Positions 2,486 to 11,378 of a DNA stretch of 64,000 bases are shown in pieces. This DNA is from Candidatus Pacearchaeota archaeon (lineage in GTDB: Archaea > Nanobdellota > Nanobdellia > Pacearchaeales > GW2011-AR1). Position 1 is the stretch's first letter; each line of letters opens with the position of its first letter. The stretch covers positions 244,097 to 308,096 of the forward strand of contig JAIFVX010000001.1 in assembly GCA_019659125.1 (NCBI GenBank), given 5' to 3'. The notes under the pieces were generated by a model. It was not told where the DNA came from and made no database searches. It saw only the letters and a list, made by a program, of their open reading frames with translations. The position numbers and the translations under genes are program-made.

Positions 2486-3420
2486 TTTGCCAGCTCCGCG
2501 TCAATGGTCTGTTTGAATGTTGAATAAGGTACAGCTCCCTCAATGATAATGCCGTTGACGAACGATGTTGGAGTGCCGCTCACGCCAAGGGTCTGACCAT
2601 AGGCTTCCTCGTCCTGGACAGCCTTTGTATATTTACCTGAATCTAAGCATGTGTCAAATTTCGATCCGTCAACTCCCAGTTCTCGAGCCCATTTCTTCTC
2701 ATTGTCAACACTTAATGTTGCCTGGTTTGAGAACATCTTGTCATGCATGGCAAAGTATCCGGTGTCTCCCTTCTGCTCTCGGACACATCGTGCTGCCTCT
2801 GCAGCTTTCTGCGCTTCAGGGTGAAGCTGAGTAAGTGGGAAATCCTTAATGACATACAACACTTTGCCCGTATCAACATAGTCCTTGATCAGTTGAGGAT
2901 AGGTATCAGTGTAATGTCTTCCACAGAATGGGCACTGATAGTCAGTAAATTCGACAAGGACTATTTTTGCATCCTTATTGCCCTTACTAGGACTATCTCC
3001 AACGTTCACATCAACAGGACCTGTTGGAGTCGTAGTGCTTGTTCCAGGGGCAGTTGCATTACCTGAAAGAGGAACAAGGTCGCTTACTAAATACTGTCCA
3101 TCAGTTGTTACATAAACAGGGATATCCTGCCCATTATAGCTGACAATAACTTGATAGAACTGTCCATTCTTTGATGAAGAGACAACTTGTGCAGTTCCCT
3201 GCCCTCGCGAGTTAATGAATGAGATAAGGTTGTTTCCAGCTGTCTTTTCACTAACGACTGTTCCACTGGTTCCACCTTTGAAAATGATGACAAGAAGTAA
3301 GGCTAGAGCTAACACGATGGTGGCAACAATCCAAGGATTTTTTCTAAAACCATCAATATACTTTCCAACAGGAATTTCAATCGTGTCGGATCGGGCTGAT
3401 TGAGCCTCTTTAGACTTCAT
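2482..3420 (-). CDS. Membrane-anchored DsbA-family thiol-disulfide oxidoreductase
   Basis: The 312-aa protein has an N-terminal transmembrane anchor (about residues 29-47), a linker region of about 85 residues with a short Thr/Pro stretch, and a thioredoxin-fold DsbA domain with the redox motif C163-P-F-C166 and a cis-Pro loop SGTPTSF. It should sit outside the membrane and introduce or shuffle disulfides. VKOR at 31018 is a plausible re-oxidising partner. Start chosen at MKSKEAQ: a TTTAAA box lies 24.5 nt upstream of it, and an in-frame extension to 3435 lacks support. It forms an operon with ssb, an odd pairing. Confidence 0.88.
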   Translation of the reverse strand: MKSKEAQSARSDTIEIPVGKYIDGFRKNPWIVATIVLALALLLVIIFKGGTSGTVVSEKTAGNNLISFINSRGQGTAQVVSSSKNGQFYQVIVSYNGQDIPVYVTTDGQYLVSDLVPLSGNATAPGTSTTTPTGPVDVNVGDSPSKGNKDAKIVLVEFTDYQCPFCGRHYTDTYPQLIKDYVDTGKVLYVIKDFPLTQLHPEAQKAAEAARCVREQKGDTGYFAMHDKMFSNQATLSVDNEKKWARELGVDGSKFDTCLDSGKYTKAVQDEEAYGQTLGVSGTPTSFVNGIIIEGAVPYSTFKQTIDAELAK

Positions 3421-3441
3421 TCTGTGTGCACACATTAAGGC

Positions 3442-3447
3442 TTTAAA
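3442..3447 (-). promoter_or_regulatory. TATA box of the dsbA-ssb operon
   Basis: TTTAAA, centre 24.5 nt before the ATG at 3420. The divergent HerA-like gene has its own AT-rich box near 3474-3486, about 25 nt from its GTG. Confidence 0.5.
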
Positions 3448-3503
3448 AATCTTTTGAAAACTGCAATAAGAACATTTAATAAATTAAAACTCTCCTGAGA
3501 AAC

Positions 3504-4814
3504 GTGGGATATGACATTATATTAGGCCGGGATGCCTCAGATAAAGAAAAGTTTGGTGATAAGGGGCTGATATACCTAGGTAAGGGCTATGTAAAGATGG
3601 GAAACTATACCTCTCTTTCCAACAAGATGTGGATGGATGTCGCACGAAGCCATGTTGTCCTTGTAGCAGGCAAGAGAGGAAGCGGAAAATCATACACTTT
3701 AGGGACCATTGCAGAGGAGCTATCAAATCTTCCCCCTGAGAACTCCCAAAATATAGCATCACTTATTTTTGACACTATGGGAATATTCTGGACTATGAAA
3801 TATCCCAATGAAAAAGACAAGCTCATGCTTGATGAGTGGGATCTTAAAACTCGGCAGCTGCCAGTAAAAGTATTTGTACCTCACGGAAAATCTGCTGAAT
3901 ACAAACAAAAAGGCATCCCGTTCGATCATACCTTTGCTCTCAAAGCCTCGGAGTTGGAGGCAGAAGACTGGATGACTCTCTTCAACGTCGATATGACCTC
4001 TCTTCCCGGAGTGCTCATTGAAACCACGATAACACATTTACGGGAGAATCGTTTATCCTTCAATCTAGAAGATATCCGAGATGCCGTTGAAAAAGACCAT
4101 AAGGCACACCATGAGACGAAAGATATTGTTACATCTCTCTTCACCGCAGCAGACAGCTGGGGAGTCTTTGCAAGAACGACAGAAGGCACAGAAGTTACTG
4201 ATCTTGTAAATGCCGGAACAACAACCGTCCTTGACATTTCAGTCTACAGTTCTATAGGATCATTCAATGTAAGGGCATTAATCATCAGCCTTATTTCAAG
4301 AAAGCTGTTCAAGCACCGATTGGATGCCCGGAAAAAAGAAGAACTTGAAGCCATCCAGCATGGGCAGGAATACTTGGCATATCAATCTCGAAGACAGGAA
4401 CCATTAGTATGGTTGTTCATTGATGAATGCCATGAATTCATGCCTCGCGAAGGAAAGACTCCAGCAACCGATGCCTTGATGCAGCTCCTTAGAGAAGGCA
4501 GGCAGCCAGGCATTTCCTTGGTGCTTGCAACCCAACAGCCTGGACAGATTCATAGCGATGTCATGACACAAGCAGATATTGTCATTGCACATCGAGTGAC
4601 TGCTAAGCCCGACATTGAGGCCCTGAATGACATCATGCAGACCTATCTGCTGTCTAACATCAAGCGACAGATGGACGACCTTCCCTCAGCAAAGGGATCC
4701 GCAATCATCCTCGATGACAATTCAGAAAGGATTTATCCTATAAAGATACGCCCTAGATTCACCTGGCACGGCGGCGAAGCCCCTGCCTCAGTCCGAGCCG
4801 AAGTCATTCTTTAA
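3504..4814 (+). CDS. HerA/FtsK-like ATPase (DUF87 type)
   Basis: A 436-aa P-loop ATPase with Walker A GKRGSGKS (residues 56-63), Walker B in VWLFIDECHEF (about 305-315) and a downstream ATQQP sensor-like motif, all typical of the HerA superfamily. HerA proteins form hexameric DNA translocases, usually with the nuclease NurA in end resection. No NurA is adjacent, so the exact role is open. The start is GTG; an A/T-rich box lies about 25 nt upstream. The short N-terminal beta region before the P-loop fits a HerA N-terminal domain. Confidence 0.82.
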   Translation: MGYDIILGRDASDKEKFGDKGLIYLGKGYVKMGNYTSLSNKMWMDVARSHVVLVAGKRGSGKSYTLGTIAEELSNLPPENSQNIASLIFDTMGIFWTMKYPNEKDKLMLDEWDLKTRQLPVKVFVPHGKSAEYKQKGIPFDHTFALKASELEAEDWMTLFNVDMTSLPGVLIETTITHLRENRLSFNLEDIRDAVEKDHKAHHETKDIVTSLFTAADSWGVFARTTEGTEVTDLVNAGTTTVLDISVYSSIGSFNVRALIISLISRKLFKHRLDARKKEELEAIQHGQEYLAYQSRRQEPLVWLFIDECHEFMPREGKTPATDALMQLLREGRQPGISLVLATQQPGQIHSDVMTQADIVIAHRVTAKPDIEALNDIMQTYLLSNIKRQMDDLPSAKGSAIILDDNSERIYPIKIRPRFTWHGGEAPASVRAEVIL

Positions 4815-5158: not shown

Positions 5159-6075
5159 CAGCATTCCCTTTAACCGGAATTACGGAAGCAGCAATGCGAT
5201 TGTTTGGTATAGTACTACGTGAAGATGACCGTGGTCTAGAACAACAAATAAACAGAGAATGGGCAGAGCAGCGAGAGAAAATTACCGCCTCATCTGAAGA
5301 TATAACCTCTGTGGGTGATATGATCAAGGACTATAACCCTATCCACCGAAGTAAAGAATTGGCAATCAAGAAAAATCTATTAGACACCCCACTCATGGGA
5401 GCCCATACAGCAATCTACGGTGCGCAATTTATACAGGGAGTTACCGATAGAATGAAGAAATTCTGGGGTGCCGACATACAAGTAGTTAGTCAAAAATCTC
5501 GATTCCCATCCCCTATATATCCAGGCGACAAAATAAAGTGGCAGATTGTAAATTTCAAAGAGATACCAGGGAAAAACATTGATCTCGCTATTACAGGATA
5601 TAGGAAAAGAGATAATGAATCAAAAGAAGCAGTCAATCTGACCGCTAGTCTAGGAAATAGGTATTTTATTCCAGAAATAAGAGGAGTCCCTATCTACTCA
5701 CAGAGCTACCTAATAACTGAAGAGTTGATAAGAAACCTTCATCAAAGAACGGGAGGAAATTCATCTGAAAAGCCATTAGCTATATTTGCAACATCATATG
5801 TACCGACCACGCTAACGAACTTACTTCTAGAGAAAGCAAATAGCCTGGAGGGGACAAATGCTTCCATGAATTTCAAATTTACTGGAGAGCTGCAACCAGG
5901 AGAACTTACAGTCGATATTTATAAGTTCGAAAAAACAAGGCCTCGAGGCGGAGCATACTGGTATAACATGGATGCCCACTGCAGACAGGGTGGAAAATCA
6001 GTGGCCTATGGTACAATGCTTGCGATAGCCGATCAAGACGTAGAGCTTCCCTTTTCACTTAATCCATTACCTTAA
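5155..6075 (+). CDS. MaoC-like hotdog-fold (hydratase 2) protein
   Basis: The 306-aa protein carries a hydratase-2 style motif, D59-Y-N-P-I-H64, followed by a glycine-containing helix start (LMGAHTAIYG), as in MaoC/R-specific enoyl hydratases where Asp and His are catalytic. The length and a second half with similar predicted strands fit a double-hotdog architecture. Known relatives hydrate or dehydrate acyl thioesters; the substrate here is unknown, and no other lipid-metabolism gene is nearby. Co-transcribed with the 95-aa gene; its 3' end overlaps trm5 by 17 nt on the other strand. Confidence 0.62.
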   Translation: MTAFPLTGITEAAMRLFGIVLREDDRGLEQQINREWAEQREKITASSEDITSVGDMIKDYNPIHRSKELAIKKNLLDTPLMGAHTAIYGAQFIQGVTDRMKKFWGADIQVVSQKSRFPSPIYPGDKIKWQIVNFKEIPGKNIDLAITGYRKRDNESKEAVNLTASLGNRYFIPEIRGVPIYSQSYLITEELIRNLHQRTGGNSSEKPLAIFATSYVPTTLTNLLLEKANSLEGTNASMNFKFTGELQPGELTVDIYKFEKTRPRGGAYWYNMDAHCRQGGKSVAYGTMLAIADQDVELPFSLNPLP

Positions 6076-6820
6076 CGTCAGCCCGATACCTGTATTTGTA
6101 AGGTCCAATATCTCCAGCCTTCTTTACTCCACGTATCTTGATCCCCTTCTTGGCAGTCATGGCCTCTTTCATCAGCAATTCCTTTAACGCTCCAACTTTA
6201 TCTTCTTCATAAAACCCATAATAATGGATAATCCCTCCATCCTTGATCTTTGGGAACGCAACATCGAGGAAGGAATCGGAAAGGTTAGGCCTCGCCATGA
6301 CAATCCTATCAAATTTCTCCTTCAATAAAGGCACTTTCTTCCGGACATCTCCCTGAATAAGCTCAACATGAGCCTTATTCCTTTTTACATTCTCGTGTGC
6401 ATATTTCACGCATTCTTTTCCCAATTCTACAGAAATTACCTTCGCAGGCTTAGCGTGTTTAGCGATAACAATGGCGAAAGGAGCAACTCCTCCAAACATG
6501 ACTAAAACCTTTTCGCCTTTTTTCACCAAGGAAGCAATTTCCTTTCGTTCACTTGCAAGCCGCGGAGAAAAGTAGCAGCTATCGACATTAAGTCGAAACT
6601 CACACCCATTTTCCCTATACAATGCCTCCTTTGTTTTCTCTCCCGCAATGTGCTTTGTAGTTAAAGTTCTCAATCTTCCCTTAAACCGATCAGTCTTTTC
6701 AAGCACTGTTCGTACATTCTTATGATCTTTCAAAAAACGAAGAGCAAACTTCTTCTTATCCTTAACTCCCCGTTTGAACTTCACAATAGCTATGTTGCCA
6801 AGAACATCATAGGTTGCCAT
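6059..6820 (-). CDS. trm5: tRNA (guanine37-N1)-methyltransferase Trm5-like
   Basis: Uses SAM to form m1G37 in tRNA, which prevents +1 frameshifting. The 253-aa protein lacks the D1 domain of longer Trm5 forms. It has the D2 start YDVLGNIAIV, the substrate/SAM segment CYFSPRLASER, a glycine-rich SAM site (MFGGVAPFA), the acidic VISVELGKE motif, the proline motif MARPNLSDSFLD (in place of NLP) and a C-terminal KYRYRADVKV. A box near 6845 lies about 25 nt upstream of the ATG. Confidence 0.85.
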   Translation of the reverse strand: MATYDVLGNIAIVKFKRGVKDKKKFALRFLKDHKNVRTVLEKTDRFKGRLRTLTTKHIAGEKTKEALYRENGCEFRLNVDSCYFSPRLASERKEIASLVKKGEKVLVMFGGVAPFAIVIAKHAKPAKVISVELGKECVKYAHENVKRNKAHVELIQGDVRKKVPLLKEKFDRIVMARPNLSDSFLDVAFPKIKDGGIIHYYGFYEEDKVGALKELLMKEAMTAKKGIKIRGVKKAGDIGPYKYRYRADVKVMD

Positions 6821-6897: not shown

Positions 6898-7140
6898 ATG
6901 GATAAAAAAATAGGATACATTCTGCTGGTTGTTGGTGCTCTTATCGTTGTCAGTACTCTAGACTTCGTGAAGAAGACAATCCACCTTAACCTTGGCTTGA
7001 GCGACTGGATGGTGGCATTGATAGGTGGAATAATCTTTATCATAGGTGCCTATTCTGTGGGCGGTGGAAGATCAAAGCAGTCACAGGAAGTCCCTATTTA
7101 TCACGGTAAGAACATCGTCGGCTATAGACGAGTTAAGTAA
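6898..7140 (+). CDS. Small membrane protein, two transmembrane segments (80 aa)
   Basis: Two hydrophobic segments (about residues 5-22 and 36-54) are separated by a short loop, followed by a basic C-terminal tail. A TTTATAAA box is centred 32.5 nt upstream, a little farther than usual here. It ends flush against the last gene of the four-gene membrane cluster, which converges on it (7140/7141). Function unknown. Confidence 0.6.
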   Translation: MDKKIGYILLVVGALIVVSTLDFVKKTIHLNLGLSDWMVALIGGIIFIIGAYSVGGGRSKQSQEVPIYHGKNIVGYRRVK

Positions 7141-7923
7141 TTAGCTAAGTCTTGACAATTCCTTGTACCAGTATTTCTTTTCTTTCTCAAGCTTGTCAAT
7201 TTCTCTCTGCTTCGAAGCAGCATCAAGATGAGATTGGCTGATAACAGAAATTGATTGATCAAGCTGTGCAATCCTATGAAGGACTGAACTTGCTCCTGCA
7301 GCCTTATATCGTTGTGTGACCCAATATCTGCGAATAGTGCCATCAAACAGTAAGAAGAGTAAAGCAACCAGCATAGTCCAGAAGTAAATATCGCTATGAG
7401 CCGAGCTGTCTGCAGTGTTCCACAATCCAAAGTAAACCATAATGAACAATATCCATCCTATTTTCCTCACAGAGCCATATTCTCCCAAAACACTATGAAG
7501 GAAGAAGAAATAAATAACAAAGGGAAGGAATGCGGTAATGGCCACTGCCAACACCTGATACTGCAATACGATAGTATTAATCCATTCAAAATCAAGGTAT
7601 CTGACTCCAATCAACGATACAACAACAGCAACAACCCATCTCACTCCTTTCTGCTTATCAAAGGTAGGTATTCTTCCAAGGACAAGTTGAATCACTGAAA
7701 GAAGAAGAACAAAGATAAGAAGCTTCTCAAATAACAGGTATCCAGTCCAGGTATCTCCTCCTAAAACTGCCTGGAGAATAGGCTCAAGAATATCTATCCA
7801 GGCTTGTATGATGTTTTCAACAGCAAACCTGAATGAACCATAACCTATATAGGCTGAAGAAAAGCTTATAGAAACAACGAGCGCGACAAAAAGTCCAATA
7901 CTAAGGTACACGCCTCGTTTCAT
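7141..7923 (-). CDS. Paralogous multi-pass membrane protein 1 of a four-gene array
   Basis: Unknown function; about 260 aa. N-terminal signal-like segment, a short amphipathic stretch (AVENIIQAWIDILEPIL), then about five hydrophobic segments and a charged C-terminal coiled-coil-like tail of about 50 residues. It shares with the genes at 7954 and 9517 the landmarks VRYL, then ITAFLPFVIYF, then WILF, then FDGTIRR. The second of two adjacent ATGs (7923) is preferred because a TTTATAAA box is centred 25.5 nt from it. Confidence 0.65.
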   Translation of the reverse strand: MKRGVYLSIGLFVALVVSISFSSAYIGYGSFRFAVENIIQAWIDILEPILQAVLGGDTWTGYLLFEKLLIFVLLLSVIQLVLGRIPTFDKQKGVRWVVAVVVSLIGVRYLDFEWINTIVLQYQVLAVAITAFLPFVIYFFFLHSVLGEYGSVRKIGWILFIMVYFGLWNTADSSAHSDIYFWTMLVALLFLLFDGTIRRYWVTQRYKAAGASSVLHRIAQLDQSISVISQSHLDAASKQREIDKLEKEKKYWYKELSRLS

Positions 7924-7944
7924 CATCTCTGAAGAAATAAGAAG

Positions 7945-7952
7945 TTTATAAA
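7945..7952 (-). promoter_or_regulatory. TATA box of array gene 1
   Basis: TTTATAAA, centre 25.5 nt before the ATG at 7923. It sits just downstream of the stop codon of array gene 2, so the genes are separate transcription units. Confidence 0.5.
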
Positions 7953-7953
7953 T

Positions 7954-8784
7954 TTAAGTGGTAGAAAGAGACGCAAGTCTATCGCGTATCTCTTTGACAT
8001 CATGCAAATATCCAGTCCTTCCCTTCTTAGAAGGATCAAAAGCACTTACATAGTTAGCATTGTGCTGAGCGTAATTAGCAGTGACATCATTCAGCTCTTT
8101 TTGAAGTTGGATGCGATGATGTCCGGCAGCGGCAGTCTGCGCCTTGTCGAGTTGAATGTTCTCTCTAAACTTATGCAACGTACCGTCAAAAACAACCATT
8201 ACCAGAGCTGCTACGGCGGCTAATGGATAAATCCATGCTGCCTCTCCCAGCTCATCAATTCGGGCAATATAAAGTCCAAGAAAAGCGACAGCAAAAAGTA
8301 TCCATGCTAGTCGTCGCCCTGTTTTCCCGAACCCTTGGGTTAAAAAGAAGAAAATAACAAAAGGTAATAATGCTGTAATGGCAACTCCATAAGTCGTGTA
8401 GGGCAGCATGATAGTCTGAATGAAGTTTTCAGGCAAAAACCGGACACTTAACATAGATACAATAACAGAAATAATAATTATAATTGTATTATTTGAGTTT
8501 AAAGTAGGTATTGTCTTAACGACTGACCAGGTAATAACAAAAACAAGAACCAAAAGAAGCAATTTACTCATAAAGATATTTGCGGCAATGTCCTTGGCAG
8601 AAGCACTAGCGGGAACAATCTCACCTACTAAGAACTCAAGTAAAGGACGTAAAGCATTCACAACATTTTCAATAAAGTCCCCTAATGCCTGCCCGATATT
8701 AGTAGCGGCAGAGACTGGAACAACGCTCATAACAATCAAGAATAATGACAAAGAAACAAGCACGACAGGCATCCACTTTCTCAT
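7954..8784 (-). CDS. Paralogous multi-pass membrane protein 2 of a four-gene array
   Basis: A 276-aa protein of unknown function. It has a signal peptide ending near VPVSAA, an amphipathic segment (FIENVVNALRPLLEFLVGE), about five membrane segments, and a hydrophilic C-terminal tail of about 70 residues. Shared landmarks with its paralogs are SVRFLPENFIQTIMLPY, ITALLPFVIFFF, WILF and FDGTLHKF. The conserved motifs lie in and between membrane segments, which suggests a channel or scaffold, but no catalytic motif is visible. It has its own TATA box. Confidence 0.65.
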   Translation of the reverse strand: MRKWMPVVLVSLSLFLIVMSVVPVSAATNIGQALGDFIENVVNALRPLLEFLVGEIVPASASAKDIAANIFMSKLLLLVLVFVITWSVVKTIPTLNSNNTIIIIISVIVSMLSVRFLPENFIQTIMLPYTTYGVAITALLPFVIFFFLTQGFGKTGRRLAWILFAVAFLGLYIARIDELGEAAWIYPLAAVAALVMVVFDGTLHKFRENIQLDKAQTAAAGHHRIQLQKELNDVTANYAQHNANYVSAFDPSKKGRTGYLHDVKEIRDRLASLSTT

Positions 8785-8805
8785 TACTGGGAAAGCAATA
8801 AAAGG

Positions 8806-8811
8806 TATATA
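8806..8811 (-). promoter_or_regulatory. TATA box of array gene 2
   Basis: TATATA within GGTATATAAAC (plus-strand reading), centre 24.5 nt before the ATG at 8784. Confidence 0.45.
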
Positions 8812-8819
8812 AACATTTC

Positions 8820-9473
8820 TCAGCGTTTGCTTGCTTTTATCTCTATATCATGAATTCTTTCTACATCTTCTGCTTTCTCTCCCTGCCGAGCCTCAGCATC
8901 TTTCTTTTGGCTTTCCTTAAGCTGTTTGCCAATAAGCTTCATATAGGTAGAATAGAATAAGAGAAGAACAACGCCAAGGGCAATAGATAGTATAATTCTC
9001 CACAAGCCTCCAAAAAAAGGAGATGCAAGAAGTACTGCTTTGGCAAGCAAACCGTTCCGTGCCCCTAAAGCAGGAATGATAACAGCTATTCCCACGGCGA
9101 CCCATTGATTTGTTTGAAAGATTTCCTTAACAACACGATAAATAATAACAAACATGACAACCCATAACCCTAAAGAAAGAAAGAAAATCCACGATAACGA
9201 GTAATCAATTCCAATCAATACTTTGAAAACAGGGCTAAGAGCAGTAAAAAAAGAACTTATCCTAAGAAAAAACCTTCCTACTGGACTCTTACTAAGCAAG
9301 TCAACCCAGGACTGTTGCAGATATGTGGTCCGTGCATCAGCATCGGACACAGTCTGCACCGTATTAACAACTTTATTATCCTGAATACTACCAGCATCAA
9401 GAGCGTGAACGAAATGGACTGCGAATAATACCAAGGTAACAAAAACAAACAATCTGGTAACTCTTTTACTCAT
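8820..9473 (-). CDS. Membrane protein 3 of the four-gene array (divergent member)
   Basis: About 217 aa. Signal peptide, a ~60-residue extracytoplasmic stretch, three or four hydrophobic segments and a charged C-terminal tail rich in Lys/Glu. It has the same overall plan as its neighbours but lacks the FLPFVI and FDGTL landmarks, so it is either a very divergent paralog or a functional partner. Start set at MSKRVTRLF because a TTTAAA box is centred 24.5 nt upstream; the frame extends seven codons further. Confidence 0.6.
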   Translation of the reverse strand: MSKRVTRLFVFVTLVLFAVHFVHALDAGSIQDNKVVNTVQTVSDADARTTYLQQSWVDLLSKSPVGRFFLRISSFFTALSPVFKVLIGIDYSLSWIFFLSLGLWVVMFVIIYRVVKEIFQTNQWVAVGIAVIIPALGARNGLLAKAVLLASPFFGGLWRIILSIALGVVLLLFYSTYMKLIGKQLKESQKKDAEARQGEKAEDVERIHDIEIKASKR

Positions 9474-9494
9474 CGGAAAAGCAAGGAAAACCAA

Positions 9495-9500
9495 TTTAAA
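9495..9500 (-). promoter_or_regulatory. TATA box of array gene 3
   Basis: TTTAAA in CCAATTTAAAAAAC (plus-strand reading), centre 24.5 nt before the ATG at 9473. Confidence 0.45.
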
Positions 9501-9516
9501 AAACTATCCAGCCTAA

Positions 9517-10305
9517 TCAAAGAGAGTTAAGAGTGGCCCGTGCATCAGCTATCTGCTTATGTATCTTGGCTCTTTCAGCTGCATTTGCCGCAGTCCTTAA
9601 GGCATCTGTCAGTCCAGCTATACGACCAAGTAATATACTTCGTTCCTCGTTTGTTATATTCTCAATCCTTTTTCCAGAATCGGCTTTATGCATGAACCGC
9701 TGCAATGTGCCGTCGAATGCAAAGGCAACAATAATAGCTCCCAAAATGGCAGGATAAACTCCAATGGCCCACCCACTGATGTCAGTCTCACTCCACGCAT
9801 ATGCCCAAAGAACAAGAACCATAACTCCATAAATTGCCCAGAGAGCTCTTCTAATATTAATCGATTGGATCCGCTCTATAATAACTCCAGAAATAATGAA
9901 GGGTATGACAATAACAATGGTAGCAACAAACGCACTCGAAGGTATAGTCATTGCCTCCAAAATATCTGAAGGTAAGAAACGAATGCCTAAAATAGCAATG
10001 ATTGCTCCAATAAGAATATTTACCCAGGGTTTGTTGCCAAAAACGTTGACGGAAGAAAGAATCCCATATACAACAAGTGTAACAAGAAAGAAAATCAATA
10101 TTTGGGCAAATAGATCACTTCCAGCATTTATAGTAGTTCCAAGAAGCTTAGAAAAAATAGGGTCAAACGCACTAGTAATTCCATTAACAAGATTTGTTAC
10201 TGCCTGGCTAAACGTCACAGAACGAGCAGCACTTACAAAACTCATAGAAAGTAGAAGAAATGCAAAAAAGCCCAAAAAGAACAAAGATATATTCCTCTTT
10301 ATCAT
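9517..10305 (-). CDS. Paralogous multi-pass membrane protein 4 of a four-gene array
   Basis: About 262 aa. Signal peptide (cleavage near FVSAA), an amphipathic segment with VTNLVNGITSAFDPIF, about five membrane segments and a C-terminal coiled-coil-like tail. Shared landmarks with genes 1 and 2 are GIRFLPSDILEAMTIP, PFIISG, the RRALWAIYG helix and FDGTLQRF. Start set at MIKRNISLFF: a TTTATAAA box is centred 25.5 nt upstream, and the in-frame extension would run through that box. Function unknown. Confidence 0.65.
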   Translation of the reverse strand: MIKRNISLFFLGFFAFLLLSMSFVSAARSVTFSQAVTNLVNGITSAFDPIFSKLLGTTINAGSDLFAQILIFFLVTLVVYGILSSVNVFGNKPWVNILIGAIIAILGIRFLPSDILEAMTIPSSAFVATIVIVIPFIISGVIIERIQSINIRRALWAIYGVMVLVLWAYAWSETDISGWAIGVYPAILGAIIVAFAFDGTLQRFMHKADSGKRIENITNEERSILLGRIAGLTDALRTAANAAERAKIHKQIADARATLNSL

Positions 10306-10326
10306 GTCTTCTACAACTGAATTACG

Positions 10327-10334
10327 TTTATAAA
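10327..10334 (-). promoter_or_regulatory. TATA box of array gene 4
   Basis: Palindromic GTTTATAAAC, centre 25.5 nt before the ATG at 10305. Confidence 0.5.
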
Positions 10335-10370
10335 CATTTCGAGAAACATTCATCAATTACAAGTGAGAAA

Positions 10371-11378
10371 TTAGAACAGAGTCCTTTGCGCCTTCTGCTT
10401 CTTGACCTCTTTCAGCTTCGCGATCTGGTTCTCAACCCGTTCCAAAGAGAACTCATGTCGATCAACAAGGATCTCCTTGATCTTCGCCTCATCGAATGAG
10501 GGAAATTTCACTTTCTCCTTGGAAACATTGGGTTTCTTGAAAATCTCAAACACTTTCGTCCAGTCAAAATCTACTCTTCCCTCTACTTCCTTGAAGATAT
10601 CAACAGGATACCTCTTCTGCTTGACCAATGCAAGAGCCTTCTTAGGGCCTATGCCTTTGACTCCTCCAGGGTTGAAATCAGTTCCGACAAGAACAGCAAG
10701 AGATATCAATTGGTCTCCATCAATACCTAGCTCGTTCAATACTTTCTGGTATTCAATCATCTCAGGAGCAATGTACATGAATCCGCTTGCAGTCTTCCTC
10801 TTTCGAGCAAGCGTCAAGTTCTGAATCAATCGAGGGCCTCCAACAACCAACGCATCATAATCCTGGCTTGCAACAGCATACGCCTGCCCTGACTTCACAA
10901 GCTCGGCGCACTGCATCTCTCCCTCTCCCGGAGCCTGCACAACAGCAACTCCCATAGCATGAAGTAATTCCTTGCTCTCAGTAATCATTGCGTCATCCAG
11001 TTTAGTAAAACCTCGAGAATACTTTGCCATAGCCTCAATGTCTTCCTCTTCTAATGCTGTCCTGAACTTTTCCTGTGCAGCATCCTTAGCATCCTGACGA
11101 ATTTCATGTGTCTTTCCTTTTAGCACATGATATTCCCCATCAAACACATAGATGAGATGAATTCCTTCTGAGAGCAAGGCAATAGTACGATAAAAAAGTC
11201 CTGAAAGATGCGATGTAACAGTTCCTGAAGAATCCATAAGAGGAGTCCCATCAGGTTGGCGAATGGAGATTAGAAATTGATATAGTGCATTGAATGCGTC
11301 AATGGCTACCACTTTGCCTTTCAAGTCAGCAAAGGTCACTTCTCTTCTACTAACAATATCTCCTATCTGTAATCCCAT
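10371..11378 (-). CDS. fen: Flap endonuclease 1
   Basis: Structure-specific 5' nuclease that removes RNA-primed flaps in Okazaki fragment maturation and long-patch repair. The 335-aa protein has the XPG N-domain (MGLQIGDIVSRREV; metal ligand D27 in AIDAFNALY), the I-domain acidic motif GEGEMQCAEL with the downstream SQDYDALVVG, and the helix-hairpin-helix GTDFNPGGVKGIGPKKAL. It ends in QRTLF, a short clamp-binding-like tail. A TATA-like box lies about 24 nt before the ATG. Length is normal for the family. Confidence 0.95.
   Translation of the reverse strand: MGLQIGDIVSRREVTFADLKGKVVAIDAFNALYQFLISIRQPDGTPLMDSSGTVTSHLSGLFYRTIALLSEGIHLIYVFDGEYHVLKGKTHEIRQDAKDAAQEKFRTALEEEDIEAMAKYSRGFTKLDDAMITESKELLHAMGVAVVQAPGEGEMQCAELVKSGQAYAVASQDYDALVVGGPRLIQNLTLARKRKTASGFMYIAPEMIEYQKVLNELGIDGDQLISLAVLVGTDFNPGGVKGIGPKKALALVKQKRYPVDIFKEVEGRVDFDWTKVFEIFKKPNVSKEKVKFPSFDEAKIKEILVDRHEFSLERVENQIAKLKEVKKQKAQRTLF

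Follow-up and report, generated by a model that had tools for sequence, protein, structure and literature searches.

A cluster of related polytopic membrane proteins in a Pacearchaeota genome and its homology to proteins of a pilus-type motor locus

Four consecutive codirectional open reading frames (ORFs) on the minus strand of a 64,000-nucleotide stretch of a Candidatus Pacearchaeota archaeon genome (0.81 Mb; GenBank assembly GCA_019659125.1, contig JAIFVX010000001.1, positions 244,097 to 308,096; hereafter the window) encode polytopic membrane proteins (positions 7141-10305 of the window, Table 1). Comparison of sequences and predicted structures indicates that all four are very probably homologous to one another, gene 3 included, and that they are likely to assemble as a heteromer. 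A shorter family of membrane proteins that is homologous to them lies beside genes of a pilus-type motor, and we tentatively propose, at a little short of an even chance, that the cluster encodes elaborated paralogues of the membrane module of a type-IV-pilus-like machine and acts in that machine. Attachment of DPANN archaea to their hosts and uptake from them are largely obscure, and no function has been assigned to the majority of their lineage-specific membrane proteins. Through homology and synteny, the present analysis connects the locus of a pilus or secretion motor with a large membrane family that lacks annotation, and it names concrete candidate subunits, namely a trio of short membrane proteins, a UBA-like coiled-coil protein, a small coiled coil, an ATPase and a platform protein.

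Four consecutive genes for related membrane proteins

We labelled proteins 1, 2 and 4 as the MB type and protein 3 as the MS type. The MB proteins have a signal peptide with an A-x-A-like end, an amphipathic helix, about five hydrophobic segments and a charged helical tail. The AlphaFold2 model of protein 2 is all-helical (mean predicted local distance difference test score 85.5, predicted template modelling score 0.59), with predicted helices at residues 5-25, 29-53, 64-90, 99-115, 119-149, 154-198, 200-244 and 253-275. A five-helix core lies inside residues 64-198 of this model, and the last two helices are long and cytosolic. Loops 1 and 3 of the MB proteins carry positively charged residues, as does the tail, and the positive-inside rule would accordingly place the N-terminus outside the cell and the coiled coil in the cytosol. 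Three residues of the core, P141, W161 and Y186, are nearly invariant, and R115 and D200 are found in about three quarters of the family members.

The original prediction had given the cluster's proteins a signal peptide, about five hydrophobic segments and a coiled-coil tail, which is seen in proteins 1, 2 and 4; protein 3 is shorter and divergent. The sequence landmarks that it had listed as shared are real but absent from some copies: VRFLP occurs only in protein 2, with IRFLP in protein 4 and VRYLD in protein 1, FDGT occurs in proteins 1, 2 and 4, and protein 3 carries none of the motifs found in the other three. The features that define the MB/MS family, that is a signal peptide, a core of five transmembrane (TM) helices, a C-terminal coiled coil and tandem paralogues, are all found in the cluster, with gene 3 as a shorter divergent subtype.

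A search of this genome with protein 2 matched proteins 1 and 4 at E 7e-26 and 3e-15, and an iterated hidden Markov model (HMM) seeded with proteins 1, 2 and 4 alone pulled in protein 3 at 7e-25. When the MB and MS profiles were aligned with each other, hhalign returned P 97.7 (E 1.7e-12), a link that rests on the first two membrane helices because the signal peptide makes up part of the alignment; controls made by reversing or column-shuffling the profiles, and unrelated polytopic families, gave P 18 or less. Where three of the four multi-pass proteins had been predicted to be paralogous, the four membrane proteins therefore stand and gene 3 joins the other three. The original prediction had not taken in the 80-residue partner gene, the spread of the family through the phylum or the homologous trio next to an ATPase of the type-IV-pilus type.

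Position and order of the subtypes between FEN1 and Trm5

For a comparison of the locus we used 20 relatives belonging to its family, together with named Pacearchaeota contigs retrieved via FEN1; by FEN1, the named organisms nearest to this genome are Candidatus Pacearchaeota. The cluster lies between Trm5 and a gene for an 80-residue protein on one side and FEN1-PolB on the other. Where it is present, one to six copies stand between FEN1 and Trm5, usually in the order 80-residue gene, two MB genes, often an inverted MB gene, one or two MS genes and FEN1; at loci without the cluster Trm5 is usually near FEN1. Conservation of copy number and order had been put forward as a check on the original prediction: copy number is not fixed, but the order of the subtypes is largely kept even though the strand of individual genes flips between relatives.

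In a tree of 116 members the MB sequences stand apart from MS save for one long-branch row, with many of the deep branches weak, and the grouping largely follows the position of a gene and not the genome from which it comes. Genes 1, 2 and 4 of the window fall into three separate MB groups, gene 4 with protein 3 of locus L051, protein 1 of L041 and protein 2 of L056. Since members group by position, the subtypes probably arose before the sampled species separated, a pattern that distinct subunits should show. The location between FEN1 and Trm5 also appears to be old, because a distant family (genome G194, family f39; locus L176) keeps two longer homologues there.

Across many Pacearchaeota, subtypes that diverged long ago occupy this locus in a largely conserved order. 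This is what favours a heteromer, and on this point the original prediction of a heteromeric membrane structure agrees with our analysis. On this reading the paralogous products of genes 1 to 4 would come together in a single hetero-oligomeric membrane complex. Each MB subunit would begin with a Sec signal peptide, followed by an amphipathic helix outside the cell and a 5-TM core, and would end in a coiled-coil tail on the cytosolic side. Such tails would bind the subunits to each other, couple them to cytosolic partners, or both.

The 80-residue protein may be an accessory subunit of such a complex. Its C-terminal tail (EVPIYxGxxIVGYR), predicted to be cytosolic, is nearly invariant among relatives. 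Among complete FEN1-Trm5 intervals its gene is present in 9 of the 13 that contain the cluster and in 1 of the 32 that do not (Fisher p 7e-6, uncorrected for phylogeny). In the closest relative by FEN1 (L053, 79%) the locus has no cluster, yet the 80-residue gene is there; that genome has one weak match only, to a member of the short trio described below.

The neighbourhood could also be read as a VirB6/CedA-like pore of type IV secretion or DNA import, with the paralogues as the pore, the 80-residue protein as a CedA1-like pilin partner and the HerA-like ATPase encoded at 3504-4814 as the motor. The Ced system comprises CedA with 6-7 TM helices, the small 2-TM pilin CedA1 and the VirB4/HerA-like ATPase CedB (PMC9905601). 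The cluster is like VirB6, TrbL and CedA-TedA in polytopy and size class, and its region has both an adjacent 2-TM protein and a HerA/DUF87 ATPase a few genes away; the resemblance is one of parts only. Profile searches give it no support: TrbL (PF04610) and TrbL_3 (PF19590) are missing from the genome at E<=1, and no TrbL, VirB6 or CedA model matched any tested family member (an hmmscan of 67 members for TrbL/VirB6 at E<=0.1 gave none among the matches listed, and the window proteins had no NCBIfam match to CedA). The profile of the 80-residue protein (VPIY) found no pilin among PDB chains. Moreover, the HerA-like gene adjoins Trm5 equally in relatives without the cluster and hence does not track it, which rules this ATPase out as a partner specific to the cluster. 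We consider a pore of this kind very unlikely.

A shorter homologous family beside pilus-type motor genes

Weak matches led to a second, shorter family of proteins of 154-192 residues with no signal peptide. A profile built from six of these sequences had matches in every one of the 25 relatives searched. The genes often stand three in tandem, and we refer to them as the trio. In this genome the trio adjoins genes for a UBA-like coiled-coil protein, a T2SSE ATPase and a T2SSF-like platform. Eighteen trio loci were fetched, and 13 of these have a T2SSE ATPase within about 3 kb, 14 a T2SSF-like platform, 15 a UBA-like coiled-coil protein (often a few bases away), 13 a small coiled coil and 15 a PRC-barrel protein. 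The ATPase of this genome matches Pfam T2SSE at E 3e-11 and TIGR03819 at E 2.5e-38, the latter below the equivalog cut-off, and TadA/FlaI-type NCBIfam models likewise matched below their cut-offs. Two loci from the phylum to which an Aenigmatarchaeota metagenome-assembled genome (MAG) belongs also contain members of the trio. A Methanomethyliaceae MAG served as the entry to another phylum, in which the trio profile had no match in 101 genomes. The three proteins are possibly core, undescribed parts of a DPANN pilus-type machine.

A trio profile of 48 members aligned with MB at hhalign P 96.7 (E 4e-10) and with a set of Woesearchaeal homologues at P 96.8, while reversed controls gave P 4.3 or less. 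MB is nearest to the middle member of the trio, and a trio HMM run over the gene sets of the FEN1 loci matches almost exclusively MB proteins. Looked for in this way, by homology to a family of type-IV-pilus-type loci, a connection to pilus components is found (the same alignment, and 13-14 of the 18 loci). Since the trio is homologous to the cluster and lies beside motor genes, the likeliest function of the four proteins is as part of a type-IV-pilus-like machine. Their 5-TM core would probably derive from the short trio beside the TadA/FlaI-type ATPase, T2SSF platform and UBA-like coiled-coil protein, and the complex could be a membrane ring, an anchor or a stator-like scaffold of the surface machine, or else a specialised second form of its membrane module.

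Several observations weigh against this assignment. The pilus link is by homology only, because neither the window locus nor the loci of longer relatives have pilus genes. At the cluster's own locus an ATPase, a platform and pilins were looked for and not found: the neighbours are replication and tRNA genes and none is of a pilus (Trm5, FEN1, PolB, RFC, HerA-like and DsbA-like genes). Elsewhere, longer relatives adjoin ribosomal protein or PAC2-like genes, depending on the lineage (names from sequence). Unlike the trio, the cluster is patchy, being found in 57 of 138 genomes of the family at E<=0.001. The match of the platform protein to T2SSF (E 0.0023) falls short of the Pfam cut-off. Finally, MS aligns weakly with the trio (P 3-25 with each single member, 65 with all), and appears to be tied to MB, a direct tie to the trio being unconvincing.

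Five TM helices, near-invariant core residues, tandem ordered subtypes and a location away from pilus genes would also suit a hetero-oligomeric channel or transporter that stands alone, has no tie to a pilus and took over an old 5-TM core. However, no channel or transporter family matched, and the homologous trio lies in synteny with an ATPase of the secretion type; we regard such a channel as rather improbable. A broader proposal, which we also rate as unlikely, is a DPANN superfamily of 5-TM hetero-oligomeric rings, in which the apparently universal trio would serve a minimal pilus-like machine and the coiled-coil versions would form a second, lineage-specific envelope complex, possibly a base for host contact or uptake.

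Table 1 Features of the cluster, its flanks and the related trio (window positions unless stated otherwise)
Feature	Coordinates	Strand	Description
Gene 1 (P0001)	7141..7926	-	261 aa; signal peptide, 5-TM core, cytosolic coiled coil; MB subtype alpha; adjoins 80-aa gene
Gene 2 (P0002)	7954..8784	-	276 aa; architecture as gene 1; MB subtype alpha-prime; AlphaFold2 model
Gene 3 (P0003)	8820..9473	-	217 aa; shorter divergent subtype MS; long C-terminal helix 157-216
Gene 4 (P0004)	9517..10305	-	262 aa; signal peptide, 5-TM core, coiled coil; third MB subtype
80-aa gene (P0005)	6898..7140	+	80 aa, convergent; 2 TM; conserved C-terminal tail EVPIYxGxxIVGYRR
Trio	C1:460632-462154 (= L194:8614-10154)		Outside window; three tandem 5-TM proteins of ~165-175 aa
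Trm5-like tRNA methyltransferase	6059..6820	-	Named from sequence; conserved flank, outside complex
FEN1-like flap endonuclease	10371..11378	-	Conserved flank on other side, outside complex
TATA-like box of gene 1	7945..7952	-	TTTATAAA; sequence and box scan
TATA-like box of gene 2	8806..8813	-	TTTATATA; sequence and box scan
TATA-like box of gene 3	9495..9502	-	TTTTTAAA; sequence and box scan
TATA-like box of gene 4	10327..10334	-	TTTATAAA; read directly from sequence; gene caller had start further upstream

Longer relatives in Woesearchaeales and other lineages

The search with an HMM across DPANN genomes that had been suggested as a check found the family widely, the MB profile matching in 154 of 371 genomes of the phylum at E 1e-4 or better, weak matches counted. 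The homologues fetched from Woesearchaeales are mostly 300-1000 residues long (up to 998), share the N-terminal core, carry long tails of coiled coil and usually occur at least two in tandem, often beside genes for soluble or one-TM coiled-coil proteins. The MB and Woesearchaeal profiles align at hhalign P 99.4 (E 6e-21), and the controls fail. Among the proteins scanned with Pfam, no convincing fused enzymatic domain was seen in the longer homologues. None of 14 further genomes, a set without a positive control, matched the Woesearchaeal-type profile. Weak matches in 10 of 115 genomes of the Aenigmatarchaeota (the phylum of G450) correspond to frames of about 155-190 residues and are trio-like, not of the long type.

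The length of these tails and the soluble coiled-coil genes beside them could point to a membrane scaffold, or a shape or attachment complex, that is held together by coiled coils and has no role in transport or in a pilus, for example in organising the envelope of ultra-small cells. The polytopic core is, however, the best-conserved part of the family, whereas the tails are free to vary, and we find a scaffold of this type quite unlikely.

Comparison with known systems

Searches of Pfam, NCBIfam, PHROGs and PADLOC returned chance-level or coiled-coil matches only, and a sequence search of PDB gave nothing meaningful. Foldseek with the model of protein 2 found no match at E<=0.001 in PDB and BFVD. 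Structure comparison with VIA gave best Z scores of 7.8 for gene 2 and 5.9 for gene 3, values that common arrangements of helices also reach, and the alignment often covered the coiled coil. No known family had been recognised in the original prediction either, and the match to a known transporter or secretion family that would have spoken against it did not appear in these databases. Viral contigs contained no relatives of the family, and there is therefore no sign of a virus.

Archaeal pilus loci have been surveyed, and nanoarchaeal ATPases without identified pilins are described there (Makarova et al. 2016, PMC4858521); no family corresponding to the cluster was found in the survey's text and the part of its arCOGs covered here. 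The cluster is like the archaeal type IV pilus and TadA-FlaI-TadC machines in that the trio homologous to it adjoins a T2SSE ATPase and a T2SSF-like platform, but it differs from them in that it lies elsewhere and has added signal peptides and coiled-coil tails. A single-cell study of Nanoarchaeota pointed to a FlaJ/TadC homologue as a candidate for symbiosis (PMC6142677). Modules of unknown families specific to Pacearchaeota and Woesearchaeota, many predicted to be membrane-bound or extracellular, have also been reported (Castelle et al. 2021, PMC8204110). These modules may include the cluster family; tandem arrays, a conserved locus and a pilus-linked trio are not mentioned in the passages covered. 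In open-access text we found no published description of the family or of its link to the trio. Within reach of the searches made the family is undescribed, and no existing family name fits it.

Promoters of the cluster genes

A separate TATA box for each of the four genes had been predicted, and this is borne out by boxes 22-25 nucleotides before every ATG. It had further been proposed that independent promoters serve to vary stoichiometry, an idea that finds no support because single-gene promoters are ordinary in the window. A strong box 20-32 nucleotides before the start is found at 26 of the 77 window genes, while 4.75% of random positions have one anywhere 18-45 nucleotides upstream, a wider range than that used for the gene count. 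One promoter per gene is on these counts ruled out as a special device of the cluster, and single-gene, probably leaderless promoters appear to be common in this genome.

Other observations in Woesearchaeales loci

PAC2-like genes (proteasome-assembly-chaperone type, by sequence) lie a few genes from long homologues in L148, L149, L151, L152, L154, L159 and L174. In one Woesearchaeales family (L168-L181) a module of three genes recurs next to ribosomal protein genes and encodes a long 5-6-TM coiled-coil protein, a 5-TM relative of about 180 residues and a 1-TM coiled-coil protein. At the contig-truncated end of a homologue (L150:11119-12120) the sequence resembles, on visual inspection, the beginning of a papain-like peptidase domain, which Pfam did not confirm. 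In L165, also from Woesearchaeales, a gene for a trio-like membrane protein of 210 residues (2011-2643) lies directly upstream of a gene for a 617-residue Lon-like ATPase with two TM segments (2687-4540). Lastly, the first 40 residues are identical in three tandem family members at L156:8079-10836, which suggests recent duplication or gene conversion.

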